NCBI RefSeq assembly: GCF_020622265.1
Contig: NZ_JACNMQ010000001.1
Coordinates: 186,001 to 250,000, forward strand
Reading direction: 5' to 3'
From: Halomonas sp. M20
Lineage (GTDB): Bacteria > Pseudomonadota > Gammaproteobacteria > Pseudomonadales > Halomonadaceae
Length of the DNA stretch: 64,000 nt
Shown: one piece after another, positions 17,093 to 61,361 of the stretch
Position numbering within the stretch: position 1 is the first letter of the stretch
Layout of the letters: every line of letters starts with the position of its first letter
The notes under the pieces: generated by a model
Seen by the model: the letters and a program-made list of their open reading frames with translations, nothing else
The model's database searches: none
Told to the model about the DNA's origin: nothing
Made by a program: the position numbers and the translations under genes

Positions 17093-17218
17093 CGAAAACT
17101 GGCTGCGCTTCGGCCATACGGCGTCAAAAATACAGCGAGAAATGCTCATTTACGACAGTAAACTCCGCGTTCTCGCTGTATTTTTTTCCTTGTCTGGCCA
17201 TTGCTCGCCGACTTTTCG
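17093..17218. repeat. Interspersed hairpin element, copy A
   Basis: The core stem has perfect 16-bp arms: AAAAATACAGCGAGAA (17126-17141) and its complement (17170-17185). The loop holds CTCATTTAC-GACA-GTAAACTCCG, itself able to form a small inner stem. Outer arms GGCCA/TGGCC (17112 and 17195) and CGAAAA/TTTTCG (17093 and 17213) also pair. Flanking words CATACGGCGT on the left and CCTTGTCTGG on the right recur in copies B, C and D, while the stems do not. It lies between pepA and holC. A 12-bp palindrome GTCTGGCCAGAC (17225-17236) repeats the right flank. Confidence 0.8.
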
Positions 17219-17251
17219 AATAGCGTCTGGCCAGACAGAAAAATCACTACC

Positions 17252-18769
17252 TCATGCTTCGTCGCTTACGTTAGCGTCCTGCTCGCGATCCATCAGGTAC
17301 TGGGTTAACAGCCCGACCGGACGGCCCGTTGCGCCTTTTTCCTTGCCGGAAATCCAGGCGGTGCCAGCGATGTCCAGATGCGCCCAGGGGTACTTGTCGG
17401 CAAAGCGGGAGAGATAGCAGGCCGCGGTGACGGCGCCGGCAGGGCGGCCGCCGATGTTGGCCAGGTCGGCGAAGTTGGAATCGAGCTGACTCTGATACTC
17501 ATCCCACAGAGGCATGTGCCAGGCCCGGTCCCAGGCAGTTTCCCCAGCGTCGAGAATATCCAGTGCCAGGTCGTCGTCGTTGGCAAAAAGCCCGGTGGCA
17601 TGATTGCCAAGGGCCATGACCATGGCGCCGGTCAGGGTGGCAATGTCGATGACGCTGGCGGGCTCGAAGCGCTCGGCGTAGGTCAGGGCATCACACAGAA
17701 CCAGTCGGCCTTCCGCGTCGGTATTGAGTATTTCGACGGTCAGGCCCTTGAGGGTCTTGATGATGTCGCCGGGCTTGGTGGCGCGTGCGTCCGGCATGTT
17801 TTCCGCCGCGGCGACGATACCGATGACATTGAGCTTGGGCTTGATCATCGCCAGCGCCTTGAAGGTGCCCAGCACGCTAGCGGCGCCGCACATGTCGTAC
17901 TTCATCTCGTCCATGTCCGCGCCGGGCTTGAGCGAGATGCCGCCGGTGTCGAAGGTGATGCCCTTGCCCACCAGCACGTGGGGCGCGTCCTGCTCGTTTT
18001 CGGCGCCTCTGTAGTGCAGCACGATCAGTCGCGACGGTTCTGCGCTGCCACGGCCAACCGAGAGCAGAGTGCGGGCGCCGAGCGCTTCGAGCGCCTCTTC
18101 ATCAAGAATTTCCACGCTTAACGCCCCAGCGGACTCCTTGCCCAGCTGCTCTGCCTGTTCCGCCAGATAGCGCGGCGTGCAGATATTGCCCGGCAGGTTG
18201 CCGAGTGTGCGGGTAAGATTGATGCCTTCCCCTAACGCATTGCCAATATGCAGGCCTTGCTCGGTGGTCGCGGCGTCGCCACTTTCATCGATCAATAGGC
18301 CGACTCGTTCAAGTCGAGACGCCGGCGCCGGTTCGGACTTGAAGATGTCGAAACGATACTGGGCACGTCGGGTGGCTTCGGCGATCATGCGCGCCTTCCA
18401 AACGTTTTCCCGCTCGGGAACCGGCACGTCGCTCAAGGCAACCACGGCTTCGTCGATGGGCATGCGAACCAGTGTCTTCAGGGCGGCATCGAGTACCTTG
18501 CGGAAGCTGCCCTCGTTGCATTTGGCGCGCTCACCCAGGCCCACCAGCAACAGGCGATCCGCAGCAAGGCCCGGCGCAAACGGAATTACCTGGACGTTGG
18601 CAAGGGTGGCGTCGAAATCGCCGCGCTCGATCAGCTGTCCGATCAGTCGTTCGCTGGCGTCATCGAGCTTGGCTGCCGTGGGCAATAGATCGCCGTCCTT
18701 GAAAACTGGAACGACCAGGCAGGCGGTCTCGACTTTGGCGGGTTCGATGGTGATGACAGGGAATTCCAT
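17252..18769 (-). CDS. pepA: Cytosol leucyl aminopeptidase
   Basis: This 505-residue M17 aminopeptidase needs two metal ions and forms hexamers. The catalytic signature NTDAEGRL is present, as are KGITFDTGGISLKPG with metal-ligand Asp and Lys, and MKYDMCGAA. GGAGA precedes the ATG at 18769; 17 extra in-frame upstream codons are not homologous. In E. coli PepA also binds DNA in Xer recombination and carAB control; nothing here tests that. It is divergent from lptF-lptG, a conserved arrangement in gammaproteobacteria. Confidence 0.96.
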   Translation of the reverse strand: MEFPVITIEPAKVETACLVVPVFKDGDLLPTAAKLDDASERLIGQLIERGDFDATLANVQVIPFAPGLAADRLLLVGLGERAKCNEGSFRKVLDAALKTLVRMPIDEAVVALSDVPVPERENVWKARMIAEATRRAQYRFDIFKSEPAPASRLERVGLLIDESGDAATTEQGLHIGNALGEGINLTRTLGNLPGNICTPRYLAEQAEQLGKESAGALSVEILDEEALEALGARTLLSVGRGSAEPSRLIVLHYRGAENEQDAPHVLVGKGITFDTGGISLKPGADMDEMKYDMCGAASVLGTFKALAMIKPKLNVIGIVAAAENMPDARATKPGDIIKTLKGLTVEILNTDAEGRLVLCDALTYAERFEPASVIDIATLTGAMVMALGNHATGLFANDDDLALDILDAGETAWDRAWHMPLWDEYQSQLDSNFADLANIGGRPAGAVTAACYLSRFADKYPWAHLDIAGTAWISGKEKGATGRPVGLLTQYLMDREQDANVSDEA

Positions 18770-18974
18770 GATGTCTCCACTGGACAAGAGGTTTCTCTTT
18801 TGGACACCTGCCTGCGACAAGACAAGTGTCCGAGGATTCTGGATAATGCCGGCACGGCAACGAGAAGGTATTAGTCCTTTCTAGTGTCGTACCCGTACTC
18901 TCCTCAGTGTACGCAAAGCACCGCACCATTGCATGGACGTTACCACGCGCCAGGACGCTACCCGGGAGACAGTC

Positions 18975-20054
18975 TTGATCATTTTTCGTTATCTGACCCG
19001 CGAAATCCTGATTACCATGAGCGCCGTTGCCGGCGTATTGCTGCTGGTGATCATGGGCAGCCGTTTCATCCGCTATTTCACCACCGCCGCCGAAGGTGAT
19101 ATTCCGGCCAGCATTCTTGGCACCTTGATGCTCTTCCATCTACCGGGGTTTCTTGAGCTGATCCTGCCATTGGCCTTCTTTCTAGCCATTCTGCTGGCCT
19201 ATGGGCAACTCTATCTGAATAGTGAAATCACGGTGTTGGTGGCCTGCGGTATCAGTCCCAACCGGTTGTTGCAGGTCACCATGCTGCCGACGGTGCTGAT
19301 CACGATCCTGGTGGGGCTGTGCAGCCTGTGGCTGGGGCCCTCCGGGGCGCGATATAACGAAATTCTGATCGAGGAGCAGCAAAGCCGCCTGGATTTTTCG
19401 GTGCTGGCGCCCGGACGTTTTCAGGATTTCGGCGATGGACGTACCGCCTATATCGAAGACTTGAACAGCAACAGAACACGCATGCAGGGCGTTTTCATTA
19501 GCGAGCGTCAACAGCGGGACGATGGCACGCCCGAGACGGTGGTGACCCGGGCCAGCAGCGGCTATCAAACCGTCGATGACGAGACCGGCAGTCGCTTTCT
19601 GGTGCTGGGGGATGGAGAGCGCTACAGCGTCGAGCCTGGGCGTTCCCAGGCGGAGCGACTGGAGTTCGATATCTACGCAGTGCGGCTTTCCCGGGCCGCC
19701 GAAATGAGTGACCTCGAGGACGTCGAATATCTCCCGACCCAGGAGTTGATGATATTGAATAGCGCCAAGTCCCTGGCGCAGCTGCAGTGGCGCATCAGCC
19801 TGCCGCTGACGGTGCCGATTCTGGCCCTGCTGGCACTGCCGCTGGCCAAGGTCAATCCGCGGCAAGGACGCTTCGCCAAGCTGCTGCCGGCAATCTTCCT
19901 GCACATCAGTTATCTGAGTCTGCTACTGGCCGCCTTGGATGCGATCGGTCGAGGAGTGCTGCCTGCCATCGTCGGCATGTGGCCCATCCATCTAGGGTAT
20001 CTCTTGCTTGGTTTGTGGCTCACACGACGGTCGCAACTACGGGGGATGCGCTAA
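18975..20054 (+). CDS. lptF: LPS export ABC transporter permease LptF
   Basis: This 359-residue inner-membrane subunit of LptB2FG extracts lipopolysaccharide from the inner membrane. The N terminus MIIFRYLTREIL matches the family when the TTG at 18975 is used; GGGAGAC lies just upstream. An ATG at 18933 would add 14 residues with no family match. Six membrane spans are expected, three on either side of a periplasmic beta-jellyroll domain (about 120-260). GDIPASIL and SEITVLVACG near the N terminus are typical. It is joined to lptG by a TAATG overlap, indicating coupled translation. Confidence 0.93.
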   Translation: MIIFRYLTREILITMSAVAGVLLLVIMGSRFIRYFTTAAEGDIPASILGTLMLFHLPGFLELILPLAFFLAILLAYGQLYLNSEITVLVACGISPNRLLQVTMLPTVLITILVGLCSLWLGPSGARYNEILIEEQQSRLDFSVLAPGRFQDFGDGRTAYIEDLNSNRTRMQGVFISERQQRDDGTPETVVTRASSGYQTVDDETGSRFLVLGDGERYSVEPGRSQAERLEFDIYAVRLSRAAEMSDLEDVEYLPTQELMILNSAKSLAQLQWRISLPLTVPILALLALPLAKVNPRQGRFAKLLPAIFLHISYLSLLLAALDAIGRGVLPAIVGMWPIHLGYLLLGLWLTRRSQLRGMR

Positions 20055-21118
20055 TGATTGCAGATCGTCTCGACCGGTATATCGCCCGCAACGTACTGGC
20101 AACCATCTTCGTCGTACAGCTGGTACTGCTGGGGCTCGACCTGGTTATCGCCTTCATCAACGATCTAAAAGACGTTGATGGTGGCTATGGCGCTTTCGAT
20201 GTGCTGCTTTATCTTGGCCTGCGTCTACCCTGGCGTTTTTATCAATATGCCCCGGTGGCGGTGTTGATCGGCGCCCTGATCGGGCTGGGGAGCATGGCCT
20301 CGAACAATGAGCTGACGATAATGCGGGCTTCCGGGCGTTCCTTGCTACGTATTCTCTGGAGCGCGATGAAGCCGATCCTCCTGGTGATCGTCACCGTACT
20401 GCTGATTGCGGAATTCGTGTCTCCGCGCACGGAACAGTTCGCCCAGGCCTGGCGCCTGGAGCAGTTGAGCGGCAAGGGGGCGGTAGTTACCCTGCGCGGT
20501 GGCTGGCAGCGCGAAGGAGAGAACTTCTATCGATTCGGTGCCATTCGGGCCGACGATACAGTGATCGATCTGACCCGCTATCGTTTCGATGGCAAGCGTC
20601 TGGAAGAGGCCACTCATGCAGCGCGAGCCGTCTGGGAAAACGACCATTGGGAGTTGCGGAATGTCGATATCACACGCTTTTCCGAGCAACGCACCGACAC
20701 CGAGCATCATGCACGACTGGACTGGAATACCGATCTCACCCCCGCGCAGCTCAACCGTTTGCTACGGGATGTGGAAAGCCAGGCACCCAGCGAGCTATGG
20801 GCCTATGCGAATTACTTGAAGGACCAAGGGCTGACGCCTATCCAGCCGCTGTTGTACTTCTGGCAGAAGATGCTGATGCCGGTCACCATGGCATCCCTGG
20901 TGCTGGTAGCGGCTTCCTTCGTGTTTGGCCCATTGCGCACTGTGGCGGCGGGCACCCGAGTGTTCTATGGGGTAATCGTGGGCCTTTCATTCAAGTATCT
21001 ACAGGATCTGCTGGCGCCGGCCTCTACGGTGTTCGGTTTTTCGCCGGTCTGGGCGGTGCTGGCGCCGACATTGGCCTGCATCGGAGTGGGGCTTTACCTA
21101 TTACGACGCAGCGGCTAG
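20054..21118 (+). CDS. lptG: LPS export ABC transporter permease LptG
   Basis: This 354-residue partner of LptF has the same layout: N-terminal spans (LDRYIARNVLATIFVVQLVLLGLDLV), the ELTIMRASGRS coupling region that contacts LptB, a periplasmic domain, and three C-terminal spans (LLRRSG tail). The ATG overlaps the lptF stop codon. The frame remains open far upstream inside lptF, but that part is a shadow. Repeat element B begins 10 bp after its stop. Confidence 0.93.
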   Translation: MIADRLDRYIARNVLATIFVVQLVLLGLDLVIAFINDLKDVDGGYGAFDVLLYLGLRLPWRFYQYAPVAVLIGALIGLGSMASNNELTIMRASGRSLLRILWSAMKPILLVIVTVLLIAEFVSPRTEQFAQAWRLEQLSGKGAVVTLRGGWQREGENFYRFGAIRADDTVIDLTRYRFDGKRLEEATHAARAVWENDHWELRNVDITRFSEQRTDTEHHARLDWNTDLTPAQLNRLLRDVESQAPSELWAYANYLKDQGLTPIQPLLYFWQKMLMPVTMASLVLVAASFVFGPLRTVAAGTRVFYGVIVGLSFKYLQDLLAPASTVFGFSPVWAVLAPTLACIGVGLYLLRRSG

Positions 21119-21127
21119 GAGGCCAGT

Positions 21128-21248
21128 CACGATTTGCTGCGTGTCGGTCATACTTCGTTAAATTCGGGCTCAAAGTACTCATTTACACCAGTAAACTCCG
21201 TCTTTTCGCCCGAATTTGCCTTGTCTGACTCTAACTCGCTAAATCGTG
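21128..21248. repeat. Interspersed hairpin element, copy B
   Basis: The core stem is AAATTCGGGC (21160-21169) with GCCCGAATTT (21208-21217). The loop contains CTCATTTAC-ACCA-GTAAACTCCG. Intermediate arms GTCA/TGAC (21147 and 21226) and outer arms CACGATTT/AAATCGTG (21128 and 21241) pair perfectly, and GGCC words flank both ends. Left flank CATACTTCGTTAAA and right flank GCCTTGTCTGAC match copies A, C and D. It occupies the space between lptG and the RDD gene. Confidence 0.8.
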
Positions 21249-21302
21249 AACAGGCCTCCGTGAGCTTGACTACGGTTTACTGTTACTGTTAAGGGAAAAG
21301 CG

Positions 21303-21755
21303 ATGCGACGTTTTGCCAATCTGGATGAGGTGTGGCCAGCGGGATTGCCGCGCCGGCTGGGGGCAATGCTCTACGATACCCTGGTATTGCTGGCGGTCTG
21401 GATGCTGGTGGGGTTTGTTGCCGTCGCGCTCAACGGGGGCGAAGCCAGCGAAAGCCCGTTGTTTCATAGCGTACTGCTGGTGGTGACCTTCGTCTTCTTT
21501 GCCTTTTTCTGGATGCGTGGCGGTATGACGCTCGGTATGCAGGCTTGGCGTCTACGGGTTCAGACTATTGAAGGTAATTCACTCTCGTTGCCGCAGTGTC
21601 TGGTGCGTTTCATTGCCGCTATGTTCTCTCTGGTCCTGGGAGGACTGGGCTACTGGTGGATATTGATCGACAGCGAGCGGCGCAGCTGGCCGGATATTGC
21701 CTCCAGCTCACGGGTGGTGGTGTTGCCCAAGCAAGGGAGACGAAAGAGAGCCTGA
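21303..21755 (+). CDS. RDD-family membrane protein
   Basis: This 150-residue protein has the RDD domain, named for conserved Arg and Asp residues: PRRLGAMLYDTLVLLAVW at the start carries the R and D, GMTLGMQAWRLRV the second Arg, and DSERRSWPDIASSSRVV the last acidic position. Three membrane spans are likely. RDD proteins are implicated in ion or small-solute transport, with some acting as Na+/H+ antiporters in halophiles; function here is unproven. The gene often follows lptFG in gammaproteobacteria. Confidence 0.85.
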   Translation: MRRFANLDEVWPAGLPRRLGAMLYDTLVLLAVWMLVGFVAVALNGGEASESPLFHSVLLVVTFVFFAFFWMRGGMTLGMQAWRLRVQTIEGNSLSLPQCLVRFIAAMFSLVLGGLGYWWILIDSERRSWPDIASSSRVVVLPKQGRRKRA

Positions 21756-21809
21756 CGGCGTCTGTAGCGGCGCGAGAGAAGGTACAAAAAGAGTGCTTGC
21801 AATCCGCTA

Positions 21810-21824
21810 TGCGAATCATTTACA
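21810..21824. promoter_or_regulatory. Candidate Fur box upstream of bfd
   Basis: TGCGAATCATTTACA matches the 7-1-7 Fur consensus TGATAATNATTATCA at 11 of 15 positions and lies 33 bp before the bfd start. Iron-repressed expression is typical of bfd. Confidence 0.5.
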
Positions 21825-21856
21825 TTCACTATCAGGACGATAGTGAGGCTGATTCC

Positions 21857-22060
21857 ATGTACGTATGTCTATGCAAGCGTGTTTCTGACAACACTATTCA
21901 GCAGGTCGTGGCTCAAGGGGCCAGAAGCTGGCGTGAAGTGCGGGAACAGACAGGCTGCGCTACCCAGTGTGGCAAGTGTGCTTGCGTGGGCAAGTCGATA
22001 ACACGAGATGCCGTGGCCAAGGAGTTGTTTGGCGATGCCGATCTATCCTACGCGGTCTAA
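21857..22060 (+). CDS. bfd: Bacterioferritin-associated ferredoxin
   Basis: This 67-residue [2Fe-2S] protein donates electrons to bacterioferritin so that stored ferric iron can be reduced and released. The ligands C-x-C (Cys4, Cys6) and C-x2-C (Cys38, Cys41) are visible; extra cysteines occur at 34 and 43. The start at 21857 is supported by GAGG upstream and by family length; the frame is open farther upstream inside the RDD gene. A candidate Fur box precedes it and bfr follows 171 bp downstream. Confidence 0.93.
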   Translation: MYVCLCKRVSDNTIQQVVAQGARSWREVREQTGCATQCGKCACVGKSITRDAVAKELFGDADLSYAV

Positions 22061-22231
22061 TCACGGAATATTCCTCACTTTCATTGGCATTCGATAACCT
22101 GTCGCGAATGCGATGAAATCTCTATAACCAATTGTCTTTGTTGGACTTTTTTTCAACTTTGGGCGATACTTCTCTGGTCGTAAGCGCGTGGGTGCATTTC
22201 CTGCGCCTATAAAAAATGTAAGGAGATCCCC

Positions 22232-22705
22232 ATGAAAGGCGATGCCAAGGTTATCGAACATCTCAATATCGTACTGGGTAATGAGCTGGTCGCGATCAAT
22301 CAGTATTTTCTACACGCCAAGATGTACAAGGACTGGGGCCTCAAGGCATTGGCAAAGTGGGAATACGATGAGTCCATCGAAGAGATGAATCACGCCGACA
22401 AACTGATCGAGCGTATCCTGTTCCTCGAAGGACTGCCCAATCTCCAGGATCTGGGCAAGCTGCATATCGGTGAACATACCCGTGAAATGCTAGAGAGCGA
22501 CCTGGCGGCGGAACACAAGGGTCGCAAGGATCTGGTCGACGCCATCACCTACTGCGAGCAGGTTCACGACTACGTCAGTCGCGATCTGTTCCGCGATATT
22601 CTCGCCGACGAGGAAGAGCACATCGATATGCTCGAGACCGAGTTGGGGCTGATGGACAAGGTCGGGGTGGAGAACTATCTGCAGAAGCAGATGCGCGAAG
22701 CCTGA
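22232..22705 (+). CDS. bfr: Bacterioferritin
   Basis: This 157-residue subunit forms a 24-mer iron-storage shell. The dinuclear ferroxidase ligands are in the canonical places: Glu18, Glu51, His54, then Glu in the AITYCEQ region and the DEEEHID Glu/His. Met52, the haem ligand at the dimer interface, is present, so this is a true haem bacterioferritin. AAGGAG lies at ideal distance before the ATG. The 171-bp gap after bfd is AT-rich and probably holds a separate promoter, allowing bfr to be made under iron-replete conditions while bfd is made under starvation. Confidence 0.96.
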
Positions 22706-22768
22706 TGGCCCTAAAACCAGCTATGCCCGCTTGGTTTGGGCAATAGCAGAACGTATCTTGCTTACAAG

Positions 22769-22800
22769 AAGAAGGCGCCTTCAAAAGACGCCTTCTTTCG
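22769..22800 (+). terminator. Rho-independent terminator after bfr
   Basis: Stem AAGAAGGCG (22769-22777) with CGCCTTCTT (22789-22797) and an 11-base loop, followed by a short T-rich tail. It separates bfr from the convergent purK. Confidence 0.7.
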
Positions 22801-22833
22801 TTGTGTGTCGCTCGGAACTTTCTCAGAACCCTT

Positions 22834-23928
22834 TTAGCCCAGATCGTTGACCAGAAGCTCCTCAACGGCTCCAATACGCTCGCCAAGCTGTTCGTCACTC
22901 GATGCCAGTACGGTGATATGCCCGATCTTGCGCCCGGGGCGGGGTGTCTTGCCGTAATCGTGCCAACGAGTGCCAGGTACCTTGAGCACCGCATCCCGTT
23001 CGGGAAGCGCGCCGATCACATTGAGCATGGCACAAGGCACTAAGCGCTCTGTCGCGCCCAGAGGTAGGCCTGCCACGGCGCGCAGATGATTCTCGAACTG
23101 GCTGGTGGCAGCACCCTCGATGCTCCAGTGCCCGGAATTATGCACTCTCGGGGCGATTTCATTGGCCAGCAAGTCGTCTCCCACGACAAAGAATTCAAAC
23201 GCCATCACGCCGACATAATCGAGTTCCGTCAATACTCGATCAATGTAATCTTTCGCCAGGCGCTGCAGTGGATGGCCCGGCTCGGGAATGGAGCAGTGCA
23301 GCATGCCCTGGCGATGCTCGTTGCGGGAAAGCGGCCAGGTGCGGGTTTCACCGTCACGGCCGCGTACCGCAATCGCCGAGACCTCATGATCGAAATCGAC
23401 GAACCCTTCGAGCACCAAGGGCACGGCGCCCAGTTTGGCAAAAGCGCCGATGACGTCACCCGGTTCACGCAATACTTTCTGGCCCTTACCGTCATAGCCC
23501 AGGGTGCGGGTCTTGAGCACTGCGGGCAGGTCAATCTCGGCAACCGCGGTATCGAGATCCGTCTGGCTATCGACCTTGGCGACCGGAGGCAGAGGAATGT
23601 CCAATGAGCGAAACAGCGACTTCTCGGCCCAACGGTCCTGGGCGGTTTGCAGCGCCTTGGCCGGGGGGAAGGCCGGGCACTGGGTAGCCAGCCGCGCGAC
23701 TGCGTCGGCTTTGATGTTCTCGAACTCAAACGTCACTACGTCGCTTTCCTGGGCAAGGGATTCAAGCGCGGCACTATCGTTCCAATCCGCGTGAATATGC
23801 CGACCGTGCAGCGCTGCACAGGGCGAATCCGATGGGTCGAAAAAGATGAATCGAGCATCGAATCCTGCACCGGCTTCCGCCATCATTCGGCCCAGTTGGC
23901 CGCCCCCTACAACGCCTATGCGCAACAT
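22834..23928 (-). CDS. purK: 5-(carboxyamino)imidazole ribonucleotide synthase
   Basis: This 364-residue ATP-grasp enzyme makes N5-CAIR from AIR, ATP and bicarbonate in de novo purine synthesis. The sequence shows GVVGGGQLGRMMA at the N terminus, the ATP-grasp core LKTRTLGYDGKGQ, and the metal and substrate region NEIAPRVHNSGHWSIEGA. GGAG precedes the ATG. purE lies 12 bp upstream on the same strand, so this is a purE-purK operon. Confidence 0.96.
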   Translation of the reverse strand: MLRIGVVGGGQLGRMMAEAGAGFDARFIFFDPSDSPCAALHGRHIHADWNDSAALESLAQESDVVTFEFENIKADAVARLATQCPAFPPAKALQTAQDRWAEKSLFRSLDIPLPPVAKVDSQTDLDTAVAEIDLPAVLKTRTLGYDGKGQKVLREPGDVIGAFAKLGAVPLVLEGFVDFDHEVSAIAVRGRDGETRTWPLSRNEHRQGMLHCSIPEPGHPLQRLAKDYIDRVLTELDYVGVMAFEFFVVGDDLLANEIAPRVHNSGHWSIEGAATSQFENHLRAVAGLPLGATERLVPCAMLNVIGALPERDAVLKVPGTRWHDYGKTPRPGRKIGHITVLASSDEQLGERIGAVEELLVNDLG

Positions 23929-23940
23929 TCAGGTCTCCGG

Positions 23941-24435: not shown

Positions 24436-24579
24436 GCTTTCTCCGTTTAATCGTCTGCCGTATCCGGAATACCTGCCGGAGTCGTCGGTCTGGTCGTTGC
24501 CAGTCGTTGAAATAAGCGCAGCAGTATACCAGCGGATATCATCCGCGACATCACGACGCTCGTTTTCAAGACTCTATCG

Positions 24580-26100: not shown

Positions 26101-26192
26101 GAATCATCCTTGATTGCTGCGTGAACCAGTATTCAGCATCGTCCCTTTCCTACAATCTGCCAACGCCTCCTTAGCAATAAAAGTGAAAAATA

Positions 26193-39564: not shown

Positions 39565-39639
39565 GGGTCGTTAGCTCAGCGGTAGAGCAGTTGGCTTTTA
39601 ACCAATTGGTCGTAGGTTCGAATCCTACACGACCCACCA
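39565..39639 (+). tRNA. tRNA-Lys (UUU), copy 1
   Basis: Acceptor stem GGGTCGT pairs with ACGACCC. The anticodon arm is TTGG-CTTTTAA-CCAA with anticodon TTT. The T-arm is GTAGG-TTCGAAT-CCTAC, and CCA is encoded. The length is 75 bases. It is identical to copies 2 and 3. Confidence 0.97.
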
Positions 39640-39657
39640 TCTCGACGGCCCGGCGGC

Positions 39658-39732
39658 GGGTCGTTAGCTCAGCGGTAGAGCAGTTGGCTTTTAACCAATT
39701 GGTCGTAGGTTCGAATCCTACACGACCCACCA
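39658..39732 (+). tRNA. tRNA-Lys (UUU), copy 2
   Basis: Same 75-base sequence as copy 1, with encoded CCA; separated from it by 18 bases. Probably processed from a common transcript. Confidence 0.97.
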
Positions 39733-39781
39733 TCACCGCCGTTTTGATATTTCTCGTAGTCTCAGTGATCAATATTGTCAC

Positions 39782-39856
39782 GGGTCGTTAGCTCAGCGGT
39801 AGAGCAGTTGGCTTTTAACCAATTGGTCGTAGGTTCGAATCCTACACGACCCACCA
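39782..39856 (+). tRNA. tRNA-Lys (UUU), copy 3
   Basis: Same 75-base sequence as copies 1 and 2; 49 bases after copy 2. A terminator follows 8 bases after the CCA end. Confidence 0.97.
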
Positions 39857-42867: not shown

Positions 42868-43961
42868 AGATGAAAGAGGTCCTGAAATCCTGGGCCGAGC
42901 GGTATTTTTCCGACGAGGAAGCCGTCGTTCTCCTGCTGGTGCTGCTCCTGGGTTTTGCCATCGTGATCTGGATGGGCAAGATGCTGGCCCCTTTCTTCAC
43001 CGCGTTGATCATCGCCTTCTTGCTGCAGGGGATCGTCGCCTGGCTGGAGCGGCTTGGCTTGCCCCGGCTGCTATCGGTATTGACGGTATTTCTGATTTTT
43101 ATCGGGGCTCTGCTGGCCCTGGCCCTGGTGATATTGCCCCTGGTCTGGAATCAGATGGTCGATCTGGTCCAGGAAACTCCGCGCATGTTTGCCCGAGTTC
43201 AACAGCTGTTGGATGGACTTCAGGCGCGCTATCCCACGGTGATCACCCCGGATCAGATCCAGGTCTGGATCTCCACGGCGGGGCGAGAGGCAACGCTGCT
43301 CGGCCAGCGGGCATTGACGCTGTCGCTATCATCGCTAGGCAACCTGCTGGGATTGATCATCTATCTGGTGCTGGTGCCGATTCTGGTGTTCTTTCTACTC
43401 AAGGACCGGGAGTCGCTGACACGCTTTTTCCTATCGCTACTGCCGCAAAAACGTGCCTTGATGACCAACGTATGGCACGAGATGGACCATCAGATCGCCA
43501 ACTACGTACGCGGCAAGGTAATCGAGATTCTCATCGTCGGCAGCGCAGCCTACGTAACCTTCTGGTTTTTTGGACTGCCCTACACGGCACTGCTGGGTCT
43601 GACGGTAGGGCTCTCGGTGCTGGTGCCCTACATCGGGGCTGCGATCGCGACGATTCCAGTGGCAGCCGTGGCGGGGTTCTACTTTGGCATCAGCGACGAG
43701 TTCGTTTATGTGGTCGTCGCTTACGGTGTACTGCAGGCGCTGGATGGCAACGTGCTGGTGCCTGTACTGTTCTCCGAGGCGGTCAATCTGCATCCGGTAT
43801 CGATCATCCTGGCGGTGCTGTTCTTCGGGGGCATCTGGGGGTTCTGGGGAATATTCTTCGCCATTCCGCTGGCGACACTGCTCAAGGCCCTGGTCAGAGC
43901 CTGGCCCCGTAGCGTCGGGCAGCGGGGGCTGCCCATTCGTCAGGTTGATCTGGAAGATTAA
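42864..43961 (+). CDS. perM: AI-2E family transporter PerM
   Basis: This 365-residue membrane protein of the AI-2 exporter-like family has about eight spans. LAPFFTALIIAFLLQGIVAWLE lies near the N terminus and YLVLVPILVFFLLKDRE in the middle. The C-terminal core contains PYIGAAIATIPVA, ALDGNVLVPVLFSEAVNLHP and GIWGFWGIFFAIPLA. In some halophiles relatives act as Na+/H+ antiporters; in E. coli PerM is a putative permease. It is linked to tusA-type and bepA genes. Repeat element C starts immediately at the end of the stop codon. Confidence 0.88.
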   Translation: MKMKEVLKSWAERYFSDEEAVVLLLVLLLGFAIVIWMGKMLAPFFTALIIAFLLQGIVAWLERLGLPRLLSVLTVFLIFIGALLALALVILPLVWNQMVDLVQETPRMFARVQQLLDGLQARYPTVITPDQIQVWISTAGREATLLGQRALTLSLSSLGNLLGLIIYLVLVPILVFFLLKDRESLTRFFLSLLPQKRALMTNVWHEMDHQIANYVRGKVIEILIVGSAAYVTFWFFGLPYTALLGLTVGLSVLVPYIGAAIATIPVAAVAGFYFGISDEFVYVVVAYGVLQALDGNVLVPVLFSEAVNLHPVSIILAVLFFGGIWGFWGIFFAIPLATLLKALVRAWPRSVGQRGLPIRQVDLED

Positions 43962-44099
43962 AATCCATGCATGAGCTACTGCGCTTGGTCATACAGCGTT
44001 AAAACTGGTCTCAGAATACTCATTTACACCTGTAAACTCCGTTTCTTCTTCCAGTTTTGCCTTGTCTGACCTTCGCTCGTGACGCTCATGAATGGATTT
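43961..44099. repeat. Interspersed hairpin element, copy C
   Basis: The core stem is AAAACTGG (44001-44008) with CCAGTTTT (44051-44058); the loop contains CTCATTTAC-ACCT-GTAAACTCCG. Further arms pair: GGTCA/TGACC (43987 and 44067), ATGAGC/GCTCAT (43971 and 44084) and AAATCCAT/ATGGATTT (43961 and 44092). Flanks CATACAGCGTTAAAA and GCCTTGTCTGACC match the other copies. It fills the gap between convergent perM and bcp. Confidence 0.8.
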
Positions 44100-54213: not shown

Positions 54214-54324
54214 AGAGGCAGTGAACATCCTGGTCGGTTCGGGCTACGCTAAAAGGGAAGATGGCCCGAACCTTCCACTTAGGATTTGCACCAACGGTGA
54301 GCACGATTAGAAAGGAGCGCGACC

Positions 54325-56442
54325 TTGAGTAGCGAAATCATCAAAGTTCCCGACATCGGCGACAGCTCCGATGTCGAAATCATCGAGATTGCGGTGTCCG
54401 AAGGCGATGTGATCGAGCCTGAAGACACCATGATCACTCTGGAATCCGACAAGGCCAGCATGGATGTACCAGCGCCCAAGGGCGGCAAGGTGGTCAAGGT
54501 GTTGGTCAAGGAAGGCGATACCGTTTCCGAAGGCGACGATATCCTCGAGCTCGAAGCCGAAGGCTCGGGTGACGACGATGCCGACGACGACAAGGATTCC
54601 GAGCAGACCGATGAAGAGCCCTCCGGTGAACCGGATGTCGAGCAGGAGCCCAAGGCTGACGACAGCGAGGACATCGACAAGGACGACAAGTCACCGAAGA
54701 GGCAGAAATCTTCTTCTGGCGGCAAGCGCACCGTCGAGGTCAAGGTGCCGGACATTGGCGATAGCACCGATGTCGAGATCATCGAGATTGCGGTTTCCGA
54801 AGGCGACGACGTCAGTGAAGAAGACTCATTGATCACATTGGAGTCCGACAAGGCCTCCATGGACGTGCCAAGCCCCTACAGCGGCAAGCTCGTGTCCCTA
54901 GCAGTCAAGGAAGGTGACAAGGTTTCGGAAGGCGATGTCATCGGCACCATGGAAATCGCCGGTGAGGGTGACGAAGGCGACGACGATCAGGACGACGCCG
55001 AGGAAGAGACTCAGCAGCCATCGGCGGAAAGTGGTGACGACGCTTCCGAAGAGGAAGACGACGACACCGATAGCGAAGACGACGACTCCGGTAGCGGTGA
55101 GCCGGAGCGCAAGGAGATTCGCGTTCCCGATATCAGCGGCAGTGAGAATGTGCCCATCATCGAGATGGCCGTTGCCGAAGGCGATGAGGTGGATAAGGAA
55201 GACCCGCTGATCACTCTGGAGTCCGACAAGGCCTCCATGGACGTGCCCAGCCCCTACAAGGGCAAGCTCGTCGAGCTTTCCGTCAAGGAAGGTGACACCG
55301 TCTCCGAAGGCGACTTGATCGGATATATTGAAGTGGCCTCCGAGGGCAAGAAGGACAAGCCCAAGAAGGACAAGTCTAAGCAGGACAGGTCGAAAAAGGC
55401 CGAGCAATCCGAGAAGCAGTCGGCCAAATCCGAAAAGTCCGAAGAGCAGAAGCAGGCGCAGAAGAGCGAGGACACACCTAAGCAGTCTCAGGCAGCCGAC
55501 CAAAAACCTCGGGATGGCAAGCTGGTCCATGCCGGTCCGGCGGCGCGCATGCTGGCCCGGGAGTTGGGTGTCGATCTGGCCAGGGTCAAGCCTAGCGGCC
55601 CCAAGGAGCGGGTGCTTAAGGAAGACATTCAAGACTTCGTCAAGCAGGCGATGAAAGGTCAGGGCGAGGCTGGTGCATCAGGCGCCGCGGCACCTACCGG
55701 CGGATCAGGCATTCCTCAGGTGCCGGCAGTCGATTTCAGCCAGTTTGGTGAAGTCGAAGAGCAGCCGATGGGGCGCTTGCTCAAGCTGGGCGCGGATAAC
55801 CTGCACCGCAGCTGGCTGAACGTGCCTCATGTGACCCAGTTCGACAAGGCCGATATTACCGAGCTTGAAGCCTTCCGCAAGTCGATGAAGGCCGAAGCCG
55901 AGGCTCAAGGCGCCAAGCTTACGCCCCTACCGTTCTTGATCAAGGCGTGTGCTTTCGCGCTGCGCCAGTATCCGCAGTTCAACGTCAGCCTGCATCCAGA
56001 CGGCGACAAGATAGTACAGAAGAAGTATGTGCATATCGCGGTAGCCGTGGATACGCCGAACGGCCTCATGGTGCCGGTGATTCGTGATGCGGACAAGAAG
56101 TCGCTGATCGATCTGGCCAAGGAGTCCGTGGAGCTTGCCAAGAAGGCACAGTCCAAGAAGCTCAAACGTGAGGAGATGCAGGGCGCCTGCTTTACCATCT
56201 CCAGCCTGGGTTCGATTGGCGGCACGGCGTTCACACCCATCGTCAATACACCGGAAGTGGCTATCCTGGGGGTTTCCAAGTCCCAGATGGAGCCGGTGTG
56301 GAACGGACAGGAGTTTGCGCCACGTCTGATGATGCCACTGTGCCTGTCCTACGATCATCGCGCCGTCAATGGCGCCGATGCAGCGCGTTTCACCGCGTTG
56401 CTGGGACAGTTGCTGAGCGACATTCGGCGTCTGCTGCTGTAA
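54325..56442 (+). CDS. aceF: Pyruvate dehydrogenase E2, dihydrolipoyllysine acetyltransferase
   Basis: This 705-residue core protein of the complex has three lipoyl domains, each with the ESDKASMDVP motif; the lipoylated lysines are Lys43, Lys176 and Lys302. The linkers between them are unusually acidic (runs of Asp, Glu and Ser) instead of the Ala/Pro type; the third is Lys-rich. A peripheral-subunit-binding domain (AGPAARMLARELGVDLARV) lies near 395-430. The catalytic domain ends with SYDHRAVNG (His678). Translation starts at TTG (54325), with AAAGGAG at ideal spacing. The E3 gene lpd does not follow; adk does. Confidence 0.95.
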   Translation: MSSEIIKVPDIGDSSDVEIIEIAVSEGDVIEPEDTMITLESDKASMDVPAPKGGKVVKVLVKEGDTVSEGDDILELEAEGSGDDDADDDKDSEQTDEEPSGEPDVEQEPKADDSEDIDKDDKSPKRQKSSSGGKRTVEVKVPDIGDSTDVEIIEIAVSEGDDVSEEDSLITLESDKASMDVPSPYSGKLVSLAVKEGDKVSEGDVIGTMEIAGEGDEGDDDQDDAEEETQQPSAESGDDASEEEDDDTDSEDDDSGSGEPERKEIRVPDISGSENVPIIEMAVAEGDEVDKEDPLITLESDKASMDVPSPYKGKLVELSVKEGDTVSEGDLIGYIEVASEGKKDKPKKDKSKQDRSKKAEQSEKQSAKSEKSEEQKQAQKSEDTPKQSQAADQKPRDGKLVHAGPAARMLARELGVDLARVKPSGPKERVLKEDIQDFVKQAMKGQGEAGASGAAAPTGGSGIPQVPAVDFSQFGEVEEQPMGRLLKLGADNLHRSWLNVPHVTQFDKADITELEAFRKSMKAEAEAQGAKLTPLPFLIKACAFALRQYPQFNVSLHPDGDKIVQKKYVHIAVAVDTPNGLMVPVIRDADKKSLIDLAKESVELAKKAQSKKLKREEMQGACFTISSLGSIGGTAFTPIVNTPEVAILGVSKSQMEPVWNGQEFAPRLMMPLCLSYDHRAVNGADAARFTALLGQLLSDIRRLLL

Positions 56443-56462
56443 AAGTACACGCAATGCCGATC

Positions 56463-56491
56463 AAGGCGGCCTCTTGGGGCCGCCTTTTTTT
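56463..56491 (+). terminator. Rho-independent terminator after aceF
   Basis: Stem AAGGCGGCC (56463-56471) with GGCCGCCTT (56478-56486), 6-base loop, followed by a run of seven T. It closes the aceEF operon. Confidence 0.9.
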
Positions 56492-56653
56492 GATACCAAT
56501 GTTCGATTTGCGTCGGTTCTGGCCAGACCAAAGTGTTAATGGCAGGGCCTGTGAGGGACGCTACAGTAAGTAACATGGGCTGTCCTGCGACCATGGTGTG
56601 CTTGTCTGGGTCTCTGGGCCCACGTATTGTCGGACGTAATGTTACTTTGGTAA

Positions 56654-57346
<693 letters not shown>

Positions 57347-57363
57347 CGCTGACGGGATGGCGA

Positions 57364-57400
57364 CGCACTGGCCCGGGGTGACCCCCGGGCCAGTGCGTTT
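57364..57400 (+). terminator. Terminator hairpin after adk
   Basis: Perfect 15-bp stem CGCACTGGCCCGGGG with its complement and a TGAC loop, followed by TTT. The stem is very strong though the U-tract is short. Confidence 0.75.
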
Positions 57401-57413
57401 GATGAGGTGGGTT

Positions 57414-57440
57414 TTGCCAGAACAGTGCTAGCCGTATAAT
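57414..57440 (+). promoter_or_regulatory. Probable promoter of tsaB
   Basis: TATAAT at 57435-57440 with TTGCCA (57414-57419) 15 bp upstream, 30 bp before the tsaB start. The spacing is slightly short, but the -10 is perfect. Confidence 0.55.
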
Positions 57441-57469
57441 GCGCGCTCAATTCTCGATGGTGAATGTGC

Positions 57470-58156
57470 ATGGCAACGTTGCTGGCTCTTGATGCCTCCT
57501 CGAGCGCTTGCTCCTGTGCGGTATGGCGCGACGGCGAGGTTTTCTCACGGTTTGCGTTGGCGCCACGGGAACATACGCACCGGCTGATGCCGATGATCGA
57601 TGATGTTCTGGCCGAAGCACAGATATCCCTTACCGATCTCGATGCACTAGCCTATGGGCAGGGGCCTGGCTCTTTTACCGGCCTGCGTATTGCCGCCGGT
57701 GTGGCTCAGGGTCTTGCCTTCGCTCTCGAGCGCCCATTGATTGGTGTCTCGACGCTTGCGGCGCTGGCGCTTGCGGCTCATCGACGCTATCGCCAGAGCC
57801 ATGTCTTTGCCGCCCTTGATGCCCGCATGAACGAGATCTACGTGGGTGCCTACCACTGTCAAGACGATACCGTGATACCGGTGATGGCCGATGCAGTCAT
57901 GCCGCCTCAGTCGTTGGAATTACCCCCTGCGAACCACGATGTGCAGTGGTGCGGAGTCGGTTCCGGCTGGAGTTTATGGGAAGACATGCCGATAGAGGTC
58001 AAGACCGGAATCGATCAGTGCTTCGTCGATCCACAACCTGACGCCGCCGATATGGCGCGACTGGCGGCCAAGGCCTTCGATGCTCAGGAAGGTCGCCCAG
58101 CCCATGAAGTGATACCGGTTTATTTACGGGATCAAGTCGCTTTCAAGCGCGGCTGA
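57470..58156 (+). CDS. tsaB: tRNA threonylcarbamoyladenosine biosynthesis protein TsaB
   Basis: This 228-residue ASKHA-fold partner of TsaD is required for t6A37 synthesis in tRNA. LLALDASSSACSCAVW and AYGQGPGSFTGLRIAAGVAQGLAFAL are diagnostic. An ATG two codons earlier (57464) is possible. uppP follows 34 bp downstream. With tcdA and trmO it makes three t6A37-related genes in one window, though they are not clustered. Confidence 0.94.
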   Translation: MATLLALDASSSACSCAVWRDGEVFSRFALAPREHTHRLMPMIDDVLAEAQISLTDLDALAYGQGPGSFTGLRIAAGVAQGLAFALERPLIGVSTLAALALAAHRRYRQSHVFAALDARMNEIYVGAYHCQDDTVIPVMADAVMPPQSLELPPANHDVQWCGVGSGWSLWEDMPIEVKTGIDQCFVDPQPDAADMARLAAKAFDAQEGRPAHEVIPVYLRDQVAFKRG

Positions 58157-58190
58157 TACAACGACATTTTAAAATATACGGGACATATCG

Positions 58191-59006
58191 ATGGATTGGC
58201 TACAGCTTGTGGCGCTGGCCCTGATTCAAGGGCTGACCGAATTTCTACCCATTTCCTCCTCCGCGCATCTAATTCTGCCTTCCCAGATCCTGGGTTGGCC
58301 CGATCAAGGGCTTGCTTTCGATGTCGCCGTTCATGTCGGCACCCTGGCGGCGGTGATACTGGCTTTTCGTCATGAGGTGATCGATATCCTCCAGGGCTGG
58401 TTCGGGCAGTTTGCAGGCTCCGGAACGTGGGCATCTCGCCAGTCCGAGTCGAGTCGGCTGGGCTGGATGATACTGTTGGCGACACTGCCCGCAGTGATTG
58501 CAGGCGCGTTGTTCAATGATCTGATCGAGACGTCGTTGCGCGCCTCCTTGGTCATTGCCATCACGACCATAGGGTTCGGGTTGCTGCTCTGGTGGGCGGA
58601 TGTACGGGGAGCGCGCAATCGCGATCTGCTTAGCCTGACCTTCAAGGCAGCACTGATCATCGGGTTGTTTCAGGCCTTGGCGCTGATTCCCGGGACCTCC
58701 CGCTCGGGTATTACCATCACGGCGGCATTACTGTTGGGCTTCGATCGTTTGAGCTCGGCGCGCTTCTCTTTTCTACTCTCGATCCCACTGATTTTTGCTG
58801 CGGGTACGCTGAAAGGGGTGGAACTTGCTCAGATAGGCACTGATGCAGCCATCAACGACGTCGCGATAGGGGCCATTCTTTCTTTCGTTGCCGCACTGGT
58901 ATGCATCAAGCTGTTTCTTGCCGCCCTCGATCGCATCGGCATGCTCCCCTTCGTGATCTATCGTCTGGTTCTGGGAATGATATTGCTGCTACTTTGGGTG
59001 GCATGA
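58191..59006 (+). CDS. uppP: Undecaprenyl-diphosphatase
   Basis: This 271-residue membrane phosphatase (BacA family) recycles the lipid carrier for cell-wall synthesis and gives bacitracin tolerance when abundant. The two active-site blocks are QGLTEFLPISSSAHL near residue 13 and PGTSRSGITI near 170. About eight membrane spans fit the family. Its stop overlaps the start of rsmJ (ATGA). Confidence 0.95.
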   Translation: MDWLQLVALALIQGLTEFLPISSSAHLILPSQILGWPDQGLAFDVAVHVGTLAAVILAFRHEVIDILQGWFGQFAGSGTWASRQSESSRLGWMILLATLPAVIAGALFNDLIETSLRASLVIAITTIGFGLLLWWADVRGARNRDLLSLTFKAALIIGLFQALALIPGTSRSGITITAALLLGFDRLSSARFSFLLSIPLIFAAGTLKGVELAQIGTDAAINDVAIGAILSFVAALVCIKLFLAALDRIGMLPFVIYRLVLGMILLLLWVA

Positions 59007-59767
59007 GCGCTAATGTCGTTGTAGTAGGCGAAGCGCTACAGGAGCTGGCCGAACGGCTGAACCTGCCCTGGATGCCAACACGCCCTCCGGAAGGGCTGGC
59101 ACTGATCGAAACGATTCAGGGATTGGCGCTTGCCGGTTCTCCGGCGGACTATGGCAAACCGCTAGTCGCGGATTTTGTTCTGGGAAAAGCGGATCACAGA
59201 CGTCGTTTCGGTGGTGGTCGTGGGCAACTCGTCGCAAAGGCCTGCGGACTGAGCAAAGGGGTGACGCCACGCATTGTCGATGCGACCGCCGGACTTGGGC
59301 GTGATGCCTTCGTGCTGGCAGGTCTTGGTGCCGAGGTGCTGATGGTGGAACGATCGCCGGCCATCTTTGCGCTACTCGAGGATGCGCTGAAACGCGCCGG
59401 AGGTGACGATGAAACTCAGTCCGTCGCGGCACGACTGCGACTAGTCCATGCCGATTCGGCGAGAGAGCTGCACCGGGTAATATCCGAAGCGGGTTTCGAT
59501 CCTCAGGTCGTTCATCTCGATCCAATGTTCCCTCATCGCAGCAAATCCGCTCTGGTAAAGAAGGAGATGCGTCTATTCCGCGCCTTGGCGGGTGATGACG
59601 ACGATGCACCGCAACTGCTCGAAGCCGCCCTAGCGCTGGCGACCCATCGGGTAGTGGTCAAACGACCGCGCCAGGCGCCGCCCATTGCTGGAACCAGACC
59701 GGCTCATGTCATCGAGGGCAAGACCAGCCGCTACGATCTCTATGTGCATCGCACACTCAAGGTCTAG
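59003..59767 (+). CDS. rsmJ: 16S rRNA (guanine1516-N2)-methyltransferase
   Basis: This 254-residue SAM-dependent methyltransferase modifies G1516 of 16S rRNA. The SAM loop is VDATAGLGRDAFVLAGLG. HLDPMFPHR is the catalytic DPxFP motif, and the upstream DFVLGKADHRRRFGGGRGQ block is diagnostic of RsmJ. The ATG at 59003 is coupled to the uppP stop. Upstream in-frame codons lie inside uppP. Confidence 0.92.
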   Translation: MSANVVVVGEALQELAERLNLPWMPTRPPEGLALIETIQGLALAGSPADYGKPLVADFVLGKADHRRRFGGGRGQLVAKACGLSKGVTPRIVDATAGLGRDAFVLAGLGAEVLMVERSPAIFALLEDALKRAGGDDETQSVAARLRLVHADSARELHRVISEAGFDPQVVHLDPMFPHRSKSALVKKEMRLFRALAGDDDDAPQLLEAALALATHRVVVKRPRQAPPIAGTRPAHVIEGKTSRYDLYVHRTLKV

Positions 59768-59925
59768 CGTTGTCCATGGGTGAGAATCGCTAGAGCGAAC
59801 ACCGGTTAAAGACGAGACGCCGTCAGGCGATAAAGACATATAGCGATATGCACTGCATTGAAGTGACATCTGAAGAGCGTTGCCGCGTTAGACCGTTGAG
59901 AGCAATGTACCGACGAGAAAAGGTG

Positions 59926-61083
59926 ATGCGAAACAAGAAACAGCGTAGCGTTTGGCGAGATGGCAATCATTTTACGCTGTTACCCGGTAGTCGGTGTTAT
60001 CTACCGGCCATGCAGTCGGCGATCGATCGTGCACGCGTATCGGTTCTGCTCGAACTTTATCTTATGGAGTCCGGGCGTTTGACCCAACGGGTTATTGATG
60101 CCCTGAACCGAGCGGCGCTGCGCGGTGTCAGCGTACGCTTAATGCTCGATGGTTTCGGTGCAATGCAACTGAACGAACAGGACCGCCAACGCCTGCGGGC
60201 CGCCGGAGTGACTTTACGCTTTTTCAATCCGCTTGCCTGGCGGGGCCTGAGCCAGAATCTGACCCGAGACCATCGTAAGCTGTTGGTGATTGATGAGCAG
60301 GTGGCCTTTACCGGCGGGTTTGGCGCCACCGACGAATTTCTCGAGACCTGGTTCGAGATAGCAGTGCGCATCGAGGGGCCGGTCGTCAATGACTGGGTCA
60401 AGCTGTTTCTGCATCTGTGGAATTCTCCATTTACCCGGGGCGAAGCAAGAAACCATTCGGCACGTCGTTTGAATACGCAACGAATCAGGCAGGATGCTAC
60501 GAAAACGCTACCTGCCGATGAGCCCGGAATGCGCGGACGAGTGGTATGGGGGCAAGGCTATCGTTATCAGGCAATCCGCTTCTCGCTGCAGCATCAGATT
60601 GCTCACGCCCGGCAGCGCATCTGGATATGCACACCCTATTTCGTACCTACCTTGAGTCTGCGCCGCCGCCTGACACGGGCGGCTCGACGAGGCGCCGACG
60701 TGCGCCTTTTGCTGCCCGGCGAAAGCCACGACCATCCTGGCGTGCGCTATGCGGGCCAACGTTTTTATGGTCGCTTGTTACGCGCCGGCGTCAGGATCTT
60801 CGAGCATCAACCGATGTTCATTCATGCCAAGTTCTCTCTAGTGGATGAATGGGTCAGCGTAGGCTCCTGCAATTTCGATCACTGGAGCCTGCAATGGAAC
60901 CTCGAGGCCAATCAGGAAATACAGGATTCAGGCTTCGCCAGCCAGATCGCGACTCTCTTCGAACAACGCTTTGCCCGCTGCCATGAAATTCTGCCTCAGC
61001 AGTGGAGGCGTCGCTCCTGGTGGCAGCGCATACGCGAAGGCGTGTATGGGACGCTGGATTCTTGGGCTACCCGACTGCGATAG
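59926..61083 (+). CDS. Phospholipase-D family phosphatidyltransferase (ClsB-like)
   Basis: This 385-residue cytoplasmic or peripheral-membrane protein has two HKD motifs: DHRKLLVIDEQVAFTGG and MFIHAKFSLVDEWVSVGSCN. It has no N-terminal membrane spans, so it resembles ClsB of the cardiolipin synthase group rather than ClsA. It probably makes cardiolipin or transfers phosphatidyl groups; cardiolipin rises under salt stress in halophiles. The start is uncertain: ATGs at 59905 and 59848 are in frame and no option has an ideal ribosome site. Repeat element D starts within its stop codon. Confidence 0.85.
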   Translation: MRNKKQRSVWRDGNHFTLLPGSRCYLPAMQSAIDRARVSVLLELYLMESGRLTQRVIDALNRAALRGVSVRLMLDGFGAMQLNEQDRQRLRAAGVTLRFFNPLAWRGLSQNLTRDHRKLLVIDEQVAFTGGFGATDEFLETWFEIAVRIEGPVVNDWVKLFLHLWNSPFTRGEARNHSARRLNTQRIRQDATKTLPADEPGMRGRVVWGQGYRYQAIRFSLQHQIAHARQRIWICTPYFVPTLSLRRRLTRAARRGADVRLLLPGESHDHPGVRYAGQRFYGRLLRAGVRIFEHQPMFIHAKFSLVDEWVSVGSCNFDHWSLQWNLEANQEIQDSGFASQIATLFEQRFARCHEILPQQWRRRSWWQRIREGVYGTLDSWATRLR

Positions 61084-61361
61084 GCTTTACCCGAAAAGTA
61101 CCTGCGCTCGTCTATACGGCGTTAAAAATCGGCTCGTGCGCGAGTCCGATCAAAATACTCATTTACACCACGTAAACTCCGTTCTTGGACTCGCAACATC
61201 CATGTTGCTCGCTCTTAGAGCAGCGAAGCTGCCCAAATCGGCAATCCTGCCGATTTGTCGCCAATTTTTGCTTTGTGACCCACATGGATGTGGGAAATGC
61301 GTTAGCCCGCAGGAGCGGGCTTAGCGCTAGACGTCGCTCGCTGACTTTTCAGACGAAGCCT
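61082..61361. repeat. Interspersed hairpin element, copy D, enlarged
   Basis: The core stem is GCGAGTCC (61140-61147) with GGACTCGC (61187-61194); the loop contains CTCATTTAC-ACCAC-GTAAACTCCG. Outer arms AGGCTT/AAGCCT (61082 and 61356) and GAAAAGT/ACTTTTC (61093 and 61344) enclose the whole. Between the core and the right end lie four more hairpins: GCAACAT-CC-ATGTTGC (61193), AAATCGGCA-ATCC-TGCCGATTT (61235), CCCACAT-GG-ATGTGGG (61279) and AGCCCGC-AGGA-GCGGGCT (61304). It fills the gap between the convergent phospholipase-D and YecA-like genes. No gene is present. Confidence 0.78.

Follow-up and report, generated by a model that had tools for sequence, protein, structure and literature searches.

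Introduction

What kind of element keeps its base pairing while its sequence changes from copy to copy? The question is raised by a 64,000-nt stretch of the Halomonas sp. M20 genome (NCBI RefSeq assembly GCF_020622265.1, contig NZ_JACNMQ010000001.1, positions 186,001 to 250,000 of the forward strand; the whole stretch is called the window below), in which four intergenic palindromes, copies A to D, share a loop and differ in their stems. These copies are small mobile DNA hairpins of a large ERIC-like family that is distributed over several phyla and, as far as the searches reach, undescribed in the open-licence literature and in Rfam. A chance origin of the elements is rejected by shuffles, arm swaps and covariation controls.

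Copies in the Window and Common Architecture

The four copies are present with the sequences and at the positions that a sequence-only reading of the window had assigned to them. Their extents, with scores of the covariance model R1, and the motifs located in them are:

17083..17227, + strand: copy A, whole element, ends approximate, between holC and pepA; R1 match 17110-17201, 71.4 bits
21117..21259, + strand: copy B, whole element, right end approximate, left end within the lptG stop TAG (21116-21118); R1 match 21144-21232, 89.2 bits
43959..44100, + strand: copy C, whole element, TA at both ends, left TA within the stop TAA (43959-43961) of a PerM-like gene; R1 match 43985-44073, 87.8 bits
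61081..61362, + strand: copy D, whole element with flanking TA duplication (61081-61082 / 61361-61362) and two extra inserted modules, left TA within the stop TAG (61081-61083) of a PLD-like gene; R1 match 61140-61194, 35.0 bits
17145..17167, + strand: loop motif of A (loop pattern match)
21178..21200, + strand: loop motif of B (loop pattern match)
44019..44041, + strand: loop motif of C (loop pattern match)
61158..61181, + strand: loop motif of D (loop pattern match)
21153..21159, + strand: left word CTTCGTT of B, opposite GCCTTG (alignment, R1 match)
21218..21223, + strand: right word GCCTTG of B (alignment, R1 match)

The proposed common loop, CTCATTTAC-n-GTAAACTCCG, has four matches in the window, and 100 shuffles gave none. 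Folded with RNA parameters, the copies reach z scores of -6.1 (A), -6.7 (B), -7.2 (C) and -5.6 (D), with every shuffle folding worse. The stems had been described as perfect and specific to each copy, which holds for A (16 bp), B (10 bp) and C (8 bp); the stem of D was misassigned. In D, GCGAGTCC/GGACTCGC represent two extra modules rather than the homologous stem. These modules (left GTGCGCGAGTCCGATC, right GGACTCGCAACATCC...) sit inserted at a TC/TC internal loop, and the homologous stem, AAAAATCGGC ... GCCAATTTTT, with one mismatch, lies outside them. Three copies were correctly noted to begin at a stop codon, since the left ends of B, C and D are the stops of lptG (TAG), the PerM-like gene (TAA) and the PLD-like gene (TAG). 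Copy A is indeed located between pepA and holC, antisense to both and away from any stop.

The elements are about 120-150 bp long and follow one plan: outer arm, CNGCGTT, an arm of usually 19 nt, TCA-UUUAC-n-GUAAA-CTCC, an arm of usually 18 nt, GCCTTG, outer arm. This folds into a long hairpin that ends in a UUUAC/GUAAA tip. Two unequal internal loops are conserved in it, one with CNGCGTT opposite GCCTTG and one with TCA opposite CTCC; the intervening and outer arms vary in sequence and keep their pairing. Most of 45 folds of diverse copies share the plan; at least four depart from it in part, namely L028, L121, L155 and the second L141 copy. A filter on the words was passed by 110 of 182 hits, the other 72 being set aside; among the 110, the left word stands 19 nt from the loop in 89 copies and the loop 18 nt from the right word in 80, numbers in which word conservation is partly built in by the filter, with spacing and arms less affected. 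Among 117 unfiltered GTDB hits from the matches listed, GYGTT ends 19 nt before TCATTTAC in 45 of 105 (10 at the next value) and CCTTG begins at 19 nt in 37 of 86.

Mutually complementary modules (left GTGCGCGAGTCCGATC, right GGACTCGCAACATCC...CCGATTTG) are present at the TC/TC loop of L304, L307, L009, L303 and L168 as well. Some copies hold one of the two modules only, and the modules vary between orthologues (L009/L308, L304/L339, L307/L313), as if swapped among elements.

Copy Number and Taxonomic Distribution

Absence of further copies had been named as grounds for giving up the idea of a family; R1 finds 57 matches in the host genome (15 contigs, 3.89 Mb), which also contains 30 exact loop matches, with none in the reversed control. 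All 14 genus genomes, host included, match both the loop pattern and R1, with 13-64 copies each, and a shorter pattern occurs in 48 of 293 genomes of an order sample that includes the host.

A scan of GTDB contigs with 17 loop bases gave at least 119 stretches. About 200 chance hits of this pattern are estimated for the whole GTDB collection, so that flanks are needed to decide membership. The left and right words accompany the loop in 70 of 117 usable GTDB hits among the matches listed, vs 69 of 2,380 random windows from the same loci. Both words or the same plan were found in the Bacteroidota isolates Anaerophaga and Marinilabilia, in Clostridia, Mucispirillum, Nitrosomonadales and Mariprofundales bins, and in Chitinimonas, Methylophaga, Pseudomonas and Salinicola. 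For several of the cross-phylum carriers, which are metagenome bins, wrong binning is conceivable; for the isolates it is not.

R1 matches all of 30 further genomes, including Pseudomonadota, Bacteroidota and Clostridia, that were picked for having a loop match. Counts per genome are lower bounds, with up to 145 candidates scored in each: at least 145 copies in Anaerophaga, 123 in Marinilabilia, 145 in Chitinimonas and 68 in Salinicola tamaricis, at least 4 to at least 30 in Clostridia bins, and at least one in an Alistipes bin. When phyla were sampled evenly, with stricter filters and the centre genome counted, R1 matched 90 of 299 genomes in the phylum of the host, 28 of 198 in that of Anaerophaga and 8 of 199 in that of a Clostridia bin.

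Nine plasmid records carry the element, and a Pseudomonas-type query found no match in 50,697 phage records. Four IMG/VR viral contigs (L375-L378), however, contain a stricter pattern and match R1. At one place in the host (L008/L009, C7:716739-716982) two inverted copies stand with their loops about 220 bp apart.

Covariation of the Arms

Compensatory covariation across the paralogous copies was a central claim of the sequence-only reading, to be dropped if it faded once more copies were aligned; it is supported beyond the controls and extends outside Pseudomonadota. In the host genome, copies with their own arms fold at a mean of -57.0 kcal/mol vs -40.6 kcal/mol with swapped arms, and the own partner arm ranks best in 17 of 30 copies and among the top three in 24. 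An alignment of 77 copies, chosen for diversity from the 110 that passed the word filter (loci L036, L040, L114 and L118 were dropped), contains 446 doubly changed cells, vs 148.7 +/- 10.3 after shuffling and at most 140 after sliding, and its covariation score is 0.483 vs 0.152 in the control. Counted instead as pairs with at least one double change, the alignment (20 of 29) does not exceed shuffles (19.8). Outside Pseudomonadota, 51 distinct copies, whose alignment was made by the model and hence leans towards it, show double changes in 25 of 29 pairs (20.9 shuffled) and 323 doubly changed cells vs 111 +/- 9 shuffled. Here the tip-stem pairs, held fixed by the first search pattern, covary too.

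Selection on a sense RNA would make G-U far outnumber A-C, so that equal counts point to pairing at the DNA level or in a strand-symmetric way, or to copying from arm to arm. The 1,184 arm cells of 74 copies include 32 G-T and 37 A-C, and a small control of 19 tRNA acceptor stems (133 cells) has five G-T and no A-C. Selection at the RNA level, as read from wobble pairs, is thus unsupported. A protein-binding cruciform, another of the roles first suggested, may be compatible with this missing wobble bias.

One copy in a proteobacterial bin (L119:5218-5309) has a perfect, copy-specific outer arm of 28 bp, which point mutation and selection alone hardly explain.

Insertion Sites and Divergence in Place

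Insertion with duplication of TA took place at two sites. One is empty in the window:

18872..18874, no strand: empty target site, filled in relatives G301 and G302 by a copy of 140-141 bp that has TA (or TAG) on either side

The other is the site of D, where the window holds a TA-flanked copy, G301 and G297 are empty, and G302 retains the right outer arm only. A short AAATTT junction, possibly a deletion scar, stands at site C in three relatives; at site B, three relatives have the left outer arm only. Site A is occupied in the more distant G296 by an element with its stem altered on both sides, by a decayed half in G297 and G302, and by nothing in G301. Many, not all, copies are flanked by TA or TNA at their outer ends, and the flanks only suggest that TNA is the target of some subfamilies. 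An automatic end-finder placed the ends of 66 of 175 copies, 10 of which have TA at the exact end. Terminal inverted repeats, such as TAGGCTNTGTCTGAAAAG, GAGCCTGTTCACGATCT and GAGGGTGTTTACAAAAT, are shared by members of a subfamily.

Where a copy is retained at its site, it diverges more slowly than the sequence around it. Examination of 111 loci gave the loop in 102 and none in nine, and 15 sites, recognized by their flanks and grouped by eye, are filled in at least two of six genomes. Over 13 orthologous pairs, changes amount to 6/303 in the loop, 22/520 (4%) in the arms and 7/208 in the word zone, compared with 31/463 further out, 57/452 (12.6%) in the terminal repeats and 10-16% in the flanks. 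Compensation was counted in the core, over 16 arm base pairs in each of 24 comparisons. A single pair has changed on both sides and is again Watson-Crick in each of L014/L326, L015/L297, L297/L360, L336/L349 and L364/L374. L029/L364 has nine such pairs, its inner stem being wholly different and its words and outer arms kept. One-sided arm changes at fixed sites occur as well, and in L010/L301 and L012/L359 the same place is held by another subfamily.

A count over whole-locus folds had given 38 two-sided changes (19 ending Watson-Crick) vs 10.5 expected among 919 pairs, along with 120 one-sided changes; it was discarded because the folds ran into flanks and paired misaligned columns.

In L014/L326 and L305/L321 the flanks match in reverse, as if the element had been inverted between species.

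Position and Orientation Relative to Stop Codons

In six Halomonadaceae genomes, 93 copies comprise 38 in sense between genes of the same direction, 27 between convergent genes, 16 in antisense between genes of the same direction, four between divergent genes and eight inside a called gene. For the 90 copies with both neighbours called, the left gene is on the same strand in 67, and in 56 of these its stop is 51-75 nt away from the loop centre, which places it at the left end of the element or slightly within; the right gene faces the element in 44, with its stop at that distance in nine (56/67 vs 9/44, Fisher p = 3.8e-11). With one copy per site, 42/54 sense-side and 7/37 antisense-side stops fall in this range (Fisher p = 3.3e-8), and a strict distance of 66-72 nt gives 24/54 vs 6/37 (p = 0.006). 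Among the GTDB loci in the matches listed, of all taxa including Pseudomonas, the counts are 25/47 in sense and 7/31 in antisense (p = 0.01). Typical junctions of stop and element are TAG-GCTATG, TAA-GAGCGT and TGA-GAACCT. In all, 78 independent sites divide into 42 in sense at a stop, six at an antisense stop only and 30 at neither; the facing stop is uncalled altogether for nine sites.

A role as a 3'-end element, one of those first proposed, would agree with the sense orientation at stop codons. A simple scan of window positions 16900-21400, which cover A and B, for terminators with loops of 3-8 nt found five sites vs 4.5 expected from shuffles, none of them inside A or B. One such site is located directly behind B (21258-21275).

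Relationship to ERIC and Other Repeats

Of the named repeats, ERIC (IRU, RU-1) comes closest: it too lies between genes, is about as long, forms an imperfect palindrome around a conserved centre, and has TA at its ends and a duplication of TA. ERIC in Gammaproteobacteria was reportedly treated by Zo in 2011, in work that may overlap with the present description. An E. coli ERIC copy (L158) contains CTGCGT, TCACTTAC-TTAT-GTAAGCTCC and GCCTT in the order found in the present elements, and R1 matches it weakly (23.0 bits, E = 3.4e-6 in 410 nt). Its loop is 12 nt from CTGCGTT or 18 nt from CTGCGTC, the word chosen by R1, and 20 nt from GCCTT, a spacing that favours kinship with ERIC. The stop of the upstream gene lies 65 nt to the left of the loop centre, in sense, in this one copy. 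Differences are that the ERIC tip pairs TTAC/GTAA and that the 127-bp ERIC consensus is not alignable at the nucleotide level, the words and their order being what is common; a blastn search with a Pseudomonas-type member gave no match in 20,395 E. coli records. Passages of two earlier papers list TA ends, TA duplication and intergenic location for ERIC, its way of moving being unknown as of 2007 (PMC2229807, PMC2759123), and the part of a further source drawn on here reports it from Enterobacteriaceae and Vibrionaceae (PMC10969869), whereas the present elements occur well beyond these families. ERIC is probably a relative, to judge from words and spacing, and a branch of the present superfamily, although common descent is not proven.

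The suggestion of a REP-like non-autonomous mobile element stands as to mobility, seen in empty and filled sites and in the TA duplication, but the nearest kin is ERIC, not REP. REP and BIME sequences with RAYT are also interspersed intergenic palindromes, and GGAG, the reverse complement of CTCC, is a tetranucleotide of REP families. The present elements, with 120-150 bp, TA duplication and two conserved internal loops, have neither the size nor the tags of REPs, which are described, in the section cited, as 20-40 bp long and tagged GTAG or CGTC (PMC3733652). RUP and Correia/NEMIS, which are miniature inverted-repeat transposable elements (MITEs) and were compared by description only, are similar in having about 100-155 bp, TA ends and target duplication, and for RUP an IS630-type partner with like ends was proposed (both points from excerpts of PMC2229807); no like-ended partner of the present elements was found in the host genome, where one outer arm was searched. 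The repeated stem-loop families of P. aeruginosa and P. putida, such as Pae-1 and Ppu-9, are known here by partial description only (PMC2267715), and one of them could belong to the present family.

The remark that the family has no name holds for the open-licence literature and Rfam, where none was found; a search of that literature with the element words, judged by title, found no paper on bacterial repeats. Assignment to a known RNA family was rejected as well, since Rfam at gathering score, applied to the window and 18 loci, reported only tRNA, RNase P and T-box and none on the element.

Proposed Mode of Movement and Maintenance

We favour, with a probability of roughly 0.6 for the whole model of folded-DNA recognition, the reading that the elements are non-autonomous mobile palindromes, recognized in folded form and kept behind stop codons. 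An enzyme, whose action we infer, would recognize the folded element, either as a single-stranded hairpin or as a cruciform, presumably through the two internal loops and their spacing. Recognition of this kind would leave the arm sequence free and only the pairing kept. Insertions would survive best just behind stop codons, where the element would become the start of the 3' untranslated region and would probably be retained as an mRNA-end hairpin. A more far-reaching version is tentative, with the odds somewhat against it: that a widespread and so far undescribed machinery reads the folded hairpin by two conserved internal loops at fixed helical spacing and inserts it in sense at stops in at least three phyla, that the insertions become selected 3' elements, and that ERIC is a side branch.

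Several points weigh against this reading. No mobilising gene was found, and the host lacks an insertion-sequence-sized pair of one common outer arm, the one arm searched, at up to three mismatches. Outer arms vary between subfamilies, and no intact element is present in relatives at sites B, C and D. Fetched sequences cover 30 of the 57 host copies and 80 of about 220 copies in relatives, and the loci are hits of the loop or the model, an ascertainment that biases the divergence of loop and words low and that of the arms less. Genes were called by a simple codon-composition caller rather than taken from curated annotation. The orientation bias suggests a sense RNA and the missing wobble bias suggests DNA, and the two conflict. 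Were TNA sites chosen uniformly, a stop would be expected at 33.9 of 84 loci; 27 + 7 = 34 stops fall in the strict distance window, and only the wider one, with 56 + 9 = 65 stops, and the orientation exceed this expectation. Target supply may explain much of the stop preference, but not the orientation; the strict counts weaken the former and the latter stands. Stop position shows no significant difference between young and old copies (p = 0.09 and 0.75), which leaves selection for that position unsupported.

The elements might instead be ordinary MITEs, with a DDE transposase of the IS5 or IS630 type acting on the terminal inverted repeats and the core as a passenger. IS5 and IS630 types use TA or TNA targets, and the TA target and the terminal repeats common within subfamilies fit such an origin. 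It is nevertheless improbable, because terminal repeats diverge at 12.6%, about the rate of flanks, vs 2-4% in the core, and vary by subfamily, whereas the core words recur across phyla; nor was a partner element found in the host for the one repeat searched. Covariation could, on the other hand, arise without selection if replication switches template and rewrites one arm from the other, which would keep the arms complementary while their sequence drifts. The equal numbers of G-T and A-C are as expected from this, as are the 28-bp perfect arm of L119 and the site where L029, L295 and L334 differ from L364 and L374 in both sides of the inner stem and agree in words and outer arms. Arm copying would, however, erase unequal internal loops, which are the most conserved part, and would leave the cross-phylum spacing and the stop-codon orientation unexplained, and we consider it unlikely.

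Rather doubtful, although less so than these two, is a functional RNA element of the 3' untranslated region, acting in stability or termination and selected site by site, with mobility secondary, as has been argued in the literature for ERIC in Yersinia. The sense orientation at stops, the slow divergence in place and the compensated changes at fixed sites all accord with it, and so does the orientation-dependent effect of ERIC on upstream transcripts given in the relevant passage of PMC2229807. G-T no commoner than A-C, 30 of 78 independent sites without a stop at either end, and the terminator scan of A and B speak against it.

A 2007 review treats the movement of ERIC and most similar elements as still open (PMC2229807). 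A cross-phylum superfamily with a recognition-like core makes the question testable, by asking which gene tracks the element across phyla. The family also provides a natural experiment on how a paired nucleic acid keeps its complementarity during sequence turnover, at sites with comparable orthologous copies, and it suggests that many bacterial genes may owe their 3' ends to mobile hairpins.

Neighbouring Genes

The PerM-like and PLD/cardiolipin-synthase-like genes score under the curated NCBIfam cut-offs. The longest holC open reading frame (16657-17127) has its TTG start inside element A, and homology begins only from residue 16, so that automatic annotation could stretch the gene into the element. 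Three tandem tRNA genes with identical Rfam scores are located at 39565-39853.

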